NCBI GenBank assembly: GCA_036405135.1
Contig: DASWYF010000048.1
Coordinates: 1-64,000, forward strand
Reading direction: 5' to 3'
Source: Verrucomicrobiia bacterium
Lineage (GTDB): Bacteria; Verrucomicrobiota; Verrucomicrobiia; Limisphaerales; JAEYXS01
Length of the DNA stretch: 64,000 nucleotides
Both the position numbers and the translations under genes were made by a program. Below are positions 27,970 through 31,593 of this stretch, piece after piece; position 1 is the stretch's first letter, and each line of letters opens with the position of its first letter. A model generated the notes under the pieces. That model had not been told where the DNA came from and did not search any database. It saw nothing but the letters and a program-made list of their open reading frames with translations.

Positions 27970-28269
27970 GGGAGTGTTATGCTGGAGGGGCGGATTCCGT
28001 GCAAGCGCGGAAGAACCAGTTTCATGTTTTTGCTCTACGTGTTTTAAAAAGATTGAGAAAGAGACTATAACGTTAATCTTCTCTTGGGCGGAAGCGGATG
28101 AAACTGCCGAGTATAGTATGTAAAATACTAATTATTAAATATTTACACAATAAAATGTCGCGTCTGTGAAATATTTTAAAATTCATGCTTTTCACAAGTT
28201 TGACTGGCATTTTTTTGGCTATCTAAACGATTGGCGATGGCAAAAATCATGCGTTTTGCAGGTTAGAGA
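27970..28269 (+). promoter_or_regulatory. AT-rich intergenic region with probable divergent promoters
   Basis: These 300 bases between the divergent comM and DUF1499 genes hold no gene. The middle (about 28100-28200) is strongly AT-rich. A TTGACT followed 16 bases later by TCTAAA near 28200-28230 could be the promoter of the DUF1499 gene, but the -10 is poor. Confidence 0.3.
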
Positions 28270-28751: not shown

Positions 28752-28954
28752 TTAAACCAACGGAGACACGGAGAGCACTGAGGCTAAGACAAATCTGACT
28801 TTAGCTATTCCATACATGAACAATCTCCTCCTCATTCGTTTGATCCCATTCGGTTGAAACTTTCCCCTCCCTCCGTACTCTCTGTGACTCCGTAGTTGGT
28901 TATTTCCACCTCGCCACCTCGGCGGCTAGGCTCGAATGTTCCACGTGGAACATT
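28752..28954. repeat. parS module 1 (duplicated unit)
   Basis: This unit of about 200 bases consists of a GGAGACACGGAGAG arm, a central part with CATTCGTTTGATCCCATTC and GGTTGAAA, the partly complementary arm CTCTGTGACTCCGTAG, and then a parS-type site. The unit at 29308-29495 has the same order and clear base identity. It holds no gene. Confidence 0.6.
28937..28952. other. parS-type centromere site 1
   Basis: The perfect 16-base palindrome TGTTCCACGTGGAACA matches the chromosomal parS consensus bound by ParB. The symmetry extends two bases each side (AA/TT). It is one of four such sites within 2 kb. Confidence 0.82.
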
Positions 28955-28994
28955 AAGATGCGAAATATTCATGCGGTTGGGGGAAGGGGTGTGC

Positions 28995-29063
28995 GGGGAC
29001 TTGTGGACACATCCAGTAACCAAGGGATTATGAGTCCCCTCCTCTAACCGCTGATCTATCCCC
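28995..29063 (-). pseudogene. Degenerate tRNA-like sequence (CAT anticodon)
   Basis: Read on the minus strand, 69 bases approximate a cloverleaf. An acceptor GGGGA pairs with TCCCC, a D-arm-like GATCAGCGGTTAGAGG follows, then a good anticodon arm GGGGA-CTCATAA-TCCCT with CAT, and a short TGGA/TCCA arm that lacks the TTC loop. The D-stem is mispaired and the T-arm is wrong, so I read it as an eroded tRNA, not a functional one. Confidence 0.4.
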
Positions 29064-29120
29064 TAGCTGTGGGGTGAGACTTGAAAGGGGATTTTTAGCC
29101 GAATTGGGATTGGGCTGGCG

Positions 29121-29190
29121 GCTGGTAAAATCGCGTGAGGGCGACACGAGGATTTTCAATCCTCTGGGCTACCAACTGAGATTTGAGTTG
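29121..29190 (-). pseudogene. Degenerate tRNA-Phe-like sequence (GAA anticodon)
   Basis: On the minus strand the D-arm CTCAGTTGGTAG is followed by the anticodon arm AGGAT-TGAAAAT-CCT and CGTGTCG, which matches bacterial tRNA-Phe through the variable loop. The T-arm and acceptor no longer pair. It lies between two CAT-type fragments. Confidence 0.4.
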
Positions 29191-29199
29191 TGGCTCGTT

Positions 29200-29235
29200 G
29201 GTTACCCGAGGGATTATGAGTCCCCTGCTCTATCC
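29200..29235 (-). pseudogene. Second CAT-type tRNA fragment
   Basis: It shares 17 identical bases (GGGATTATGAGTCCCCT on the plus strand, 29210-29226) with the fragment at 29024-29040. It keeps only part of the D-arm (GATAGAGCA) and the anticodon arm. A short inverted copy of its edge, ATAATCCCTCGG, follows at about 29262. Confidence 0.35.
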
Positions 29236-29281
29236 TTTGGGTAGTTTGAGACGGCGTTTCTATAATCCCTCGGATGGAGAA

Positions 29282-29297
29282 TGTTCCGCGTGGAACA
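29282..29297. other. parS-type site 2 (one mismatch)
   Basis: TGTTCCGCGTGGAACA differs from the perfect palindrome at one central base (A to G). It lies between the tRNA-like remnants and parS module 2. Confidence 0.6.
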
Positions 29298-29307
29298 TTC
29301 AGAGGGA

Positions 29308-29495
29308 GGTTTACCACGGAGATACGGAGAGGAAGATGCCGAATCTCCTGATCCGAATCTAGTCAATCCTCTTTCATTCGTTGACCCCATTCGGTTGAAA
29401 AAATCCCCTCCCGAGTCCTCCGTGTCTCCGTGGTTGGCTAGTTCTGCCTCCCTATCTCGGTGGCTACGGAAGGAATGTTCCACGTGGAACATTCC
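29308..29495. repeat. parS module 2 (duplicated unit)
   Basis: The second copy of the unit at 28752 has a CCACGGAGATACGGAGAG arm, the shared CCCATTCGGTTGAAA centre, a CTCCGTGTCTCCGTGG arm and a terminal parS site. The arms are better complementary here than in module 1. Confidence 0.6.
29476..29491. other. parS-type site 3
   Basis: TGTTCCACGTGGAACA again, embedded in a 24-base perfect palindrome from 29472 to 29495, the most extended of the four. It lies 37 bases beyond the mnmG stop. Confidence 0.82.
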
Positions 29496-29532
29496 GTTCC
29501 CTTTCGAGCCGGGCCGGAGGCCGGCGCTCCAC

Positions 29533-31593
29533 TTACAGATCCCCGCAGCAGGAGTTGTGGCCGGTGGGGCCGTCGAAGTGTTCGGCGGCGCCGCAAGCGT
29601 TGTCGTCGTCTGAGGAGCGGGAACTCGCTGGGGCGGTGACGGGGGCGATGGGGGAAACTGGAACCGGGATGCCGGATTCGAATCCGCCGTTGCCGGGGTT
29701 GCCGTTGCCGCGCTTCATGGCGACCATGAGCAGGGTGACATCCGCCGGGGAGATGCCAGAGATGCGGAGGGCTTGGCCGAGGGTGGCGGGTTGAATCTTC
29801 GTCAGCTTCTGGCGCGCCTCGGTGCGGAGGCTGGGAATCTTCGCGTAGTCCAGCCATGGCGGGATCTGCTTATCCTCCATGGTGCGGAACTTGGCGACCT
29901 CTTCCTCCTGGCGCTCGATGTAGCCAGAGTACTTATGAAGGATATCGATTTGCTCCAGGACGTGCGTGCTGAGGGCGGTGTTCTGGTTCGCGGCGGGCAA
30001 GTCTTTATAGGTCACCTCGGGGCGGAGAAGCATTTGGGATAGGGTAAGCGTGCCGACGCGCACGGACTTCAAGCGCGTCATCTCTTCCTCAATCGTCTGT
30101 TGCTTGGAGACAAATTTATCGTAGTTCCGCTTCGGCAAGAGGCCGATGTCGTAGCCGAGCTGGGAGAGGCGGGCATCGCAGTTATCTTGGCGCAGGAGCA
30201 GGCGATACTCGGCACGGGAGGTGAACATGCGATAGGGCTCCGTGGTGCCTTTCGTGACGAGATCATCGATCAACACGCCGATGTAAGCCTGGTCACGGCG
30301 GAGGACGATCGGTTCCTTGCTCTGGACACGTCGGGCGGCATTGATACCCGCCATAAGTCCTTGCGCCCCAGCCTCTTCATAACCGGACGTGCCATTGATT
30401 TGACCCGCAAGAAACAGGTTCCGGCACACCTTGGTTTCCAGTGAAGGATGGAGCTGCGTGGGATAGGAAAAGTCGTATTCCACGGCGTAGGCGGGGCGGA
30501 GAATCTCGGCGTTTTCGCAGCCGATGATGGACTTCACCATCTCCACCTGCACCTCGAAAGGCAGGCAGGTGGAGAAGCCGTTCACGTAGATTTCGTCCGT
30601 GCTGATGCCCTCGGGCTCGAGGAAAATCTGGTGCCGTTCCTTCTCGGCGAAGCGCACAATCTTATCCTCGATGGACGGGCAATAGCGCGGGCCGACGCCT
30701 TCGATCACGCCGGAATACATCGGGGACTTGTGCAGGTTCGCGCGGATCAGCTCGGCGGTTTTATCCGAGGTGTAGGTGATGAAACAATTCATCTGCCCGT
30801 TGATGCGGTCGAGGATGGAGCCGGGCGGATACTTGCCCTGCGAATGGCCGATGTCGCGCGGGTTGATGCCGGAATGTTCCACGTGGAACAAATCGTCCTT
30901 CCAATAGGTGAAGTACGGCACCGGCTCATCGCCGTCCTGTTTCTCGGTCTTCGTGAAATCAATCGTGCGGCTGAGGAGACGAGGCGGGGTGCCGGTCTTG
31001 AGGCGACCGAGTTCCACGCCGATTTCCTTCAGCGAACCGGACAGACCCATCGCCGCCGCTTCACCGGCGCGACCACCCTGTTGCTGGGTACTGCCGATGT
31101 GCATGAGCCCGCGCAGGAACGTGCCCGTGGTGATGATCACCGTCTTGCCGAGATACTGCACGCCGAGGGTCGTCTCCACGCCATAGACCTCACCATCGCG
31201 GAAAAGGAGCTTCGCGGCCTGGCCCTGCTTGATGTCCAGATTCTCCTGCCGCTCGCAGATCCACTTCATGCGGAACTGGTAGGCCTTCTTATCGCACTGC
31301 GCCCGAGGTGCCCAGACGGATGGGCCCTTCTTGGTGTTGAGCATGCGGAACTGCAGGCCCGTCATGTCCGTGCACTTGCCCATCTCGCCGCCGAGGGCAT
31401 CGATCTCGCGTGTGAGATGCCCCTTGGCCAAGCCACCGATGGCCGGGTTGCAAGACATCTGGCCGATGGTATCGGCATTGATCGTGAGCATGAGCGTGCT
31501 CGCCCCCATGCGCGCCGCCGCGAGGGCAGCCTCAACGCCGGCATGACCGGACCCCACCACAATCACCTCAAACTGACGCGGATAGACGAACAT
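29533..31593 (-). CDS. mnmG: tRNA uridine-5-carboxymethylaminomethyl modification enzyme MnmG (GidA)
   Basis: A 686-residue FAD protein that works with MnmE to modify U34 of several tRNAs. FAD-binding VVGSGHAGVEAALAAARMG is at the N-terminus. SCNPAIGGLAKGHLTREIDA, SPMYSGVIEGVGPRYCPSIE and GTSGYEEAGAQGLMAG are family hallmarks. Two oddities stand out. A loop containing FHVEHSGINPRD is encoded by a parS-type site at 30875. A low-complexity tail of about 35 residues (PVSPIAPVTAPASSRSSDDD) extends past the usual end. MnmG genes often sit near oriC. Confidence 0.96.
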   Translation of the reverse strand: MFVYPRQFEVIVVGSGHAGVEAALAAARMGASTLMLTINADTIGQMSCNPAIGGLAKGHLTREIDALGGEMGKCTDMTGLQFRMLNTKKGPSVWAPRAQCDKKAYQFRMKWICERQENLDIKQGQAAKLLFRDGEVYGVETTLGVQYLGKTVIITTGTFLRGLMHIGSTQQQGGRAGEAAAMGLSGSLKEIGVELGRLKTGTPPRLLSRTIDFTKTEKQDGDEPVPYFTYWKDDLFHVEHSGINPRDIGHSQGKYPPGSILDRINGQMNCFITYTSDKTAELIRANLHKSPMYSGVIEGVGPRYCPSIEDKIVRFAEKERHQIFLEPEGISTDEIYVNGFSTCLPFEVQVEMVKSIIGCENAEILRPAYAVEYDFSYPTQLHPSLETKVCRNLFLAGQINGTSGYEEAGAQGLMAGINAARRVQSKEPIVLRRDQAYIGVLIDDLVTKGTTEPYRMFTSRAEYRLLLRQDNCDARLSQLGYDIGLLPKRNYDKFVSKQQTIEEEMTRLKSVRVGTLTLSQMLLRPEVTYKDLPAANQNTALSTHVLEQIDILHKYSGYIERQEEEVAKFRTMEDKQIPPWLDYAKIPSLRTEARQKLTKIQPATLGQALRISGISPADVTLLMVAMKRGNGNPGNGGFESGIPVPVSPIAPVTAPASSRSSDDDNACGAAEHFDGPTGHNSCCGDL
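30875..30890. other. parS-type site 4, inside mnmG
   Basis: TGTTCCACGTGGAACA within the coding sequence, translated on the minus strand as part of LFHVEHSG. The protein sequence on both sides is conserved, and the segment itself looks like a surface-loop insertion. Confidence 0.78.

Follow-up and report, generated by a model that had tools for sequence, protein, structure and literature searches.

The parS consensus of the Bacillus subtilis Spo0J type is TGTTTCACGTGAAACA, as quoted in the available portions of PMC10197239 and PMC2346475. According to the text available of PMC4409726, Thermus thermophilus HB27 possesses a single chromosomal parS (parSc), which is located inside gidB, immediately upstream of parA. 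The accessible sections of PMC2346475 place the parS sites of mycobacteria at gidB and within parA, with parA and parB near the origin, and those of PMC10197239 describe 12 mouse-gut bacteria, including Akkermansia, in which parS together with guanine–cytosine (GC) skew places the origin of replication (ori), while dnaA does not always do so. The location of parS within a coding sequence is already known. Here, we analyse a 64-kb window (the whole stretch of 64,000 nucleotides, positions 1 to 64,000 of contig DASWYF010000048.1, termed C48 below) from the genome of a Verrucomicrobiia bacterium, which contains a cluster of parS-type sites beside and inside mnmG (also called gidA).

The available part of PMC13342612 contains nothing on the location of parS in Verrucomicrobiota. 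In addition, the titles and abstract openings of the open-access literature include, among the matches listed, no parS in mnmG or in Verrucomicrobiota. A widespread, frame-independent and loop-borne parS was not met in print within the literature searched, which is represented by such excerpts.

Results

Four parS-type sites cluster at mnmG

The window contains three exact copies of the palindrome TGTTCCACGTGGAACA and a fourth copy, TGTTCCGCGTGGAACA, that differs from it by a single mismatch (Table 1). These are the three perfect and one imperfect palindromes within 2 kb that the original prediction had reported, and all four are 16-bp sites of the TGTTNCACGTGNAACA type. Beyond them, no match to TGTTCCACGTGGAACA with up to three mismatches is present anywhere in the 64 kb, in agreement with the earlier statement that the window holds no copy elsewhere. 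Shuffled windows contain a mean of 0.26 matches and at most 3, with 0 of 100 reaching 4. In the three intergenic copies, the palindrome extends to ~22 bp, GAATGTTCCACGTGGAACATTC or near-identical.

The genome of the window (5.8 Mb, 52 contigs, 97.8% complete) harbors one further site with up to one mismatch, at position 240319 of contig C13 (C13:240319). Four of the five genome sites at this threshold fall inside 2 kb, and the motif is not evenly spread over the genome. Exactly two mismatches are found at three genome sites, and a threshold of up to two mismatches gives 8 places genome-wide vs 2 for the reversed-motif control. Chance as the origin of the cluster is rejected by the shuffled windows and by the reversed-motif controls, both in this genome and in the 116 genomes described below. 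The clustering, with near absence elsewhere in the genome, supports the earlier assignment of the motif to the chromosomal parS consensus type.

Two of the sites outside the cluster have features of their own. C13:240319 (L094:10319) is located between two open reading frames (ORFs). The surrounding block is strongly GC-skewed, and on visual inspection its genes resemble mobile or phage-derived ones; the site may act as a decoy or belong to a mobile element. The two-mismatch site C33:84524 is perfectly palindromic (TGTTCCATATGGAACA) and lies 8.5 kb from dnaN, which is a suggestive position; it is a weak candidate because two-mismatch sites are near chance level, the reversed control giving 2 at up to two mismatches.

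The genome encodes a canonical ParB away from the sites

The sole ParB match in the genome is located at C2:10143, in a gene that spans C2:9873–10850 (TIGR00180, E 3.2e-55, above the family cut-off). It aligns with the solved ParB, Spo0J and Noc chains, best over residues 61–271, a GERRWRA stretch included; judged by its sequence, the protein is a member of the Spo0J/ParB/Noc family. ParB is found above the family cut-off in all seven genomes tested. The best ParA-family (PF13614) match is a 273-aa frame at C40:16396. Four weaker PF13614 matches include a 750-aa open frame at C48:212939, on the contig of the window and outside the window itself. The 64 kb are thus without parA and parB, as originally noted, while a canonical ParB homologue is present in the genome.

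No parA adjoins parB on C2 among the parB neighbours inspected, which we take, from their sequences, to be purA, uppS, def and a PfkB-type kinase. The canonical ParABS locus, in which a parA and parB operon lies beside parS, is not found here, the three components being located on three contigs. dnaA is at C13:53630 and dnaN at C33:93004; of the elements considered, the contig of dnaA carries just one other, the stray C13:240319 with its single mismatch, 187 kb from the gene.

The in-gene site lies in an expanded loop of MnmG

The mnmG ORF encodes 686 aa and scores 826.9 bits against its family model, vs a cut-off of 524.85. The best MnmG relatives come from records with titles such as Limisphaerales, Pedosphaera and Verrucomicrobia subdivision 3, and the genome is that of a Limisphaerales-like member of Verrucomicrobiota. 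The loop that bears the site comprises 40 residues in the MnmG of the window and 31–69 residues in 24 aligned in-phylum rows, compared with 12–14 in five outgroups. Among the solved MnmG sequences aligned, the loop is shortened in 2zxh, which we take to be A. aeolicus MnmG, and falls in the gap between two aligned stretches in 3cp2 and 3ces, both presumably E. coli MnmG; an FHVEH-type peptide is absent from all three. An AlphaFold2 model of MnmG built from 29 sequences has a mean predicted local distance difference test score (pLDDT) of 80.9 and a predicted template modelling score (pTM) of 0.84. Residues 237–244 show a model pLDDT below 50, which would fit a flexible loop, although low confidence alone is no proof of one.

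At its C terminus, the protein is extended by 56 residues (631–686, encoded at 29536–29703), a part that is modelled with a confidence below 50 and is matched in part of the relatives only. Eight of the records used below (L024, L027, L039, L042, L043, L065, L071 and L087) are titled Akkermansia muciniphila, and their MnmG is 65–76% identical to that of the window; these titles may be wrong.

The in-gene site recurs over much of the phylum

Eighty loci were obtained from relatives matching MnmG peptide patterns. Seventy-five were taken as Verrucomicrobiota by record title, including L050, whose title is without a phylum and which was counted on the basis of 72% identity; the five from other groups (L083, L085, L088–L090) were left out of the counts and served as outgroups. 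A parS site with up to one mismatch is located within mnmG in 74 of the 75 loci, a share that may be inflated because YWKDDLFH, a pattern among the six used, reaches into the residues with which the site begins. Two or more in-gene copies are present in 9 of these loci and flanking copies in 42, and every one of the 46 copies outside mnmG lies within 1 kb of the gene (1.03 Mb searched). L082 contains flanking sites only, with none inside mnmG. This recurrence of the in-gene copy goes beyond the original prediction.

At the level of the order, 105 of 116 genomes carry the site at up to one mismatch, most of them in one or two copies, and the reversed motif matches in 4 of the 116, a single time in each. 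Nine of the 11 order genomes without the site have no detectable mnmG in their assembly, and the other two (G037 and G082) possess an in-gene mnmG site with 2 and 3 mismatches, respectively. In G001, which belongs to the genus of the window, a single site with one mismatch is present, and its assembly yielded no mnmG.

Two further sets of loci, from the order and from the wider phylum, were chosen for the motif and show the location of the site, not its frequency. Among the 30 order loci examined, the in-gene position is seen directly in 25; in 4 others, the matched part of mnmG adjoins the site and extends as far as the edge of the examined stretch or close to it, and L141 is without mnmG. 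The phylum set consists of 30 loci, one of which is the window's own. mnmG is present in all 29 examined (39–55% identical to that of the window), and the exact site lies inside the matched part in 27.

Among the outgroups, L085 is a metagenome-assembled genome with the title Deltaproteobacteria. Its mnmG is flanked by parS-like sites with one mismatch, at a distance of 44 bp on the upstream side and 690 bp on the downstream side. These flanking sites suggest that the link between parS and mnmG may predate the phylum.

Codon choice and reading frames of the in-gene site

The codon set contains 84 loop stretches reading FH[V/M]E[H/Q/L/N], which come from 76 genes (the 75 loci and the window), with L020, L043, L062 and L071 retained despite stop codons inside the tblastn range. 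The exact parS codons TTC CAC GTG/ATG GAA are used in 79 of the 84 stretches, vs an expectation of 3.6 (s.d. 1.8) calculated from the codon frequencies in these genes (TTC, CAC and GAA each 44–54%, GTG 32%), a spread that is understated because the sites are related by descent. The peptide patterns used for locus selection are degenerate, and codon choice should therefore be unaffected by it. The codons of the flanking Y-[FW]-[ST]-[YF]-W are variable.

In the wider phylum, the 39 exact in-gene sites of the 29 loci are read in the FHVE frame in 28 cases, as CSTWN in 6 and as VPRGT in 5. Particularly, the mnmG of L243 contains one copy in each of the three reading frames. Since the same 16 bases are read in three frames, a peptide cannot be what is selected in these loci. 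Codon choice and frame-independence together point to selection that acts on the DNA, not on the peptide.

The mnmG-linked parS is located at the GC-skew switch in relatives

Three relatives with single-contig genomes, G057 (4.89 Mb), G075 (4.73 Mb) and G196 (3.88 Mb, from another class), allow the position of the sites to be compared with the GC skew. Within the 162 kb of G057 that were fully read, the cumulative-skew minimum is at 2,725,713, with dnaN at 2,725,246 and parS at 2,750,117. Within the 180 kb fully read in G075, the minimum is at 3,714,156, with dnaN at 3,717,550 and parS at 3,727,198 and 3,728,620. In both genomes, dnaN is located at the minimum or no more than 4 kb from it, and the skew, in twenty sampled stretches each, reverts roughly half a chromosome away, G057 showing exceptions at 0.25 Mb (weakly positive) and 1.23 Mb (near zero). 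G196 shows a sign change of the skew at 1.36–1.43 Mb, and its parS and dnaN are located at 1.365 and 1.388 Mb. The mnmG-linked parS therefore lies beside or within the GC-skew switch in all three relatives.

The association with dnaN was followed in 25 genomes, hand-picked mostly for long contigs. In 20 of them, dnaN is on the contig of parS at a distance of 2.7–118 kb (the distance in G157 spans the ends of a contig assumed to be circular); in the other 5, the window's genome included, the two are on different contigs. The lack of a parAB neighbourhood recurs in both relatives tested, where parA, parB and dnaA are all far from parS. The distances to parS in G057 and G075 are 1.17 and 0.58 Mb for dnaA, 1.29 and 0.41 Mb for parB, and 2.28 and 0.72 Mb for the best ParA match. 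Moreover, dnaA is not at the skew minimum in either genome, lying 1.15 Mb from it in G057 and 0.57 Mb in G075.

DnaA boxes were also sought in wider stretches. Three boxes, one of them perfect, are found within 500 bp at the dnaN start in G075, and two just before dnaN in G196; both groups rank among the best of their stretches, which lends weak support to an origin there. The gene order around the three origin regions has few common neighbours. dnaN adjoins a cysteine-desulfurase-like gene (named by eye) in both single-contig relatives compared, and the glucose-6-phosphate isomerase gene immediately precedes mnmG in G057 and is ~12 kb from it in the window.

Other features around the cluster

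The spacer between the intergenic sites (28760–29434) contains diverged direct and inverted repeats, as if it had been partly duplicated; examples are 29017–29049 and 29203–29235, and 29313–29329 with 29418–29434. Beside the cluster, an AT-rich stretch ranks second in A+T among the 200-bp windows of the 301-kb contig. A scan of C48 found no DnaA-box cluster at this stretch, which is a lead and only a candidate for an unwinding element.

Table 1 Positions of the parS-type sites, their host gene and associated features in the window
Feature	Position	Strand	Remark
mnmG (gidA), tRNA uridine-5-carboxymethylaminomethyl(34) synthesis enzyme, host of the in-gene site	29533..31593	-	TIGR00136
Lineage-specific MnmG loop bearing the site, residues 228-267	30793..30912	-	alignment and model
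parS-type site, perfect, within mnmG coding sequence	30875..30890	.	encodes FHVEH, MnmG residues 236-240
parS-type site, perfect, intergenic	29476..29491	.	41 bp beyond mnmG stop
parS-type site, one mismatch (A to G, base 7 of 16), intergenic	29282..29297	.	
parS-type site, perfect, intergenic	28937..28952	.	
AT-rich 200-bp window, candidate unwinding element	28021..28220	.	68.5% A+T, ~0.7 kb from cluster

Discussion

On the basis of the sequence comparisons, the four sites are very probably chromosomal parS, the ParB-loading centromere near the origin, with the mnmG-borne copy kept in many Verrucomicrobiota. By analogy with other bacteria, the ParB of this genome would be expected to bind the sites, slide as a cytidine triphosphate (CTP) clamp, and recruit ParA and SMC for origin segregation. 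The MnmG loop would have grown to hold parS, and FHVE(H/Q), VPRGT and CSTWN would be mere translations of the DNA site. An ancestral gid-parAB neighbourhood near the origin may have broken up, the site staying with mnmG, while parA, parB and dnaA would have moved away from the origin neighbourhood. It is likely that, across much of the phylum, the centromere (often as the sole exact copy) sits in the variable loop of one housekeeping gene, in any reading frame, and that dnaN and the parS-mnmG unit still mark the origin, with parA, parB and dnaA dispersed.

Several observations weigh against this interpretation. parS, parA, parB, dnaA and dnaN are located on five different contigs in the genome of the window. 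The skew of this genome is weak, with a minimum at 76.7 kb on C48, a deeper one at 150 kb on C13, and none at dnaN on C33. No TTATCCACA DnaA-box cluster of note (up to one mismatch) is present on C48, on C13 or in the 20 kb around parS in two relatives, the densest group there, three boxes within 400 bp, being located at C48:300734, a long way from the parS sites; in the wider stretches, the boxes are not clustered in G057 and none is found at dnaN on C33. The skew of G075 breaks the expected pattern, being positive at 2.64 Mb and slightly negative at 4.08 and 4.32 Mb. In addition, the exact site is absent from 47 of 96 phylum genomes, including all those sampled from families f57 and f62, and many lineages therefore use another variant, another place or none. 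The position near oriC that the original prediction had proposed is supported by the relatives, through the skew switch in three and the dnaN linkage in 20 of 25, whereas in the fragmented genome of the window itself the skew minima fall on two contigs.

The FHVEH peptide is highly conserved among MnmG relatives, and the in-gene site could be the by-product of a functional peptide, its likeness to parS being incidental. However, the codons are almost fixed at parS, other members produce VPRGT or CSTWN from the same bases, and the peptide shifts its position within a loop whose length varies. Identical palindromes also exist outside the gene, and the solved MnmG sequences aligned lack the peptide. 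Codon choice and the three reading frames led us to reject a conserved peptide as the selected unit, and we consider an origin of the site in the peptide extremely improbable. The palindrome might instead be the operator of another DNA-binding protein, for example a repressor of mnmG, as the sites lie in and beside one gene and ParB binding is a prediction. Such an operator would nevertheless be of the exact chromosomal parS type, would be located mid-gene and not just at a promoter, and would keep to mnmG and the origin region though the other surrounding genes largely differ, all in genomes whose ParB was above the family cut-off in each of the seven cases tested. We regard an operator as very unlikely.

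A role of the ParB site in the regulation of mnmG is compatible with chromosomal parS and goes beyond it. ParB spreading from the in-gene copy would modulate transcription and tie translation to the cell cycle. The presence of a copy inside the gene in nearly all 75 loci would agree with such a role, and the available portion of PMC2346475 proposes that ParB at parS influences the expression of gidB and parA in mycobacteria, but L082 has flanking sites only. Regulation of this kind is, in our estimate, unlikely.

Taken as chromosomal parS, the sites would represent a case of DNA-level selection shaping a protein, since the presence of a segregation site in its gene appears to be the reason why the enzyme acquired a loop. 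For many Verrucomicrobiota, in which dnaA can be misleading, parS in mnmG together with dnaN would provide a simple genomic marker of the origin, and such a marker is relevant to growth-rate estimates from metagenomes. The arrangement also raises the question of why mnmG retains parS while the partner genes left.

The locus resembles chromosomal ParABS systems in its 16-bp palindrome, its few clustered copies, and the presence of ParB and ParA in the genome, but the site has no parA, parB or dnaA next to it, and the motif is two symmetric substitutions off the B. subtilis type TGTTTCACGTGAAACA. As in the mouse-gut set, parS clusters with GC skew mark the ori while dnaA does not always do so; the available text of PMC10197239 makes no statement on the position of parS relative to mnmG. 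With the mycobacterial sites described in PMC2346475 it shares a parS within or at a coding sequence, whereas those sites are coupled to gidB-parA-parB, and no dedicated loop is mentioned in the portion of that paper available. Going by the available text of PMC4409726, Thermus HB27 likewise has a chromosomal parS inside a gid gene. There, however, the gene is gidB and parA adjoins it, whereas here, without parAB nearby, the site occupies an expanded loop of mnmG (gidA) in many genomes of the phylum.

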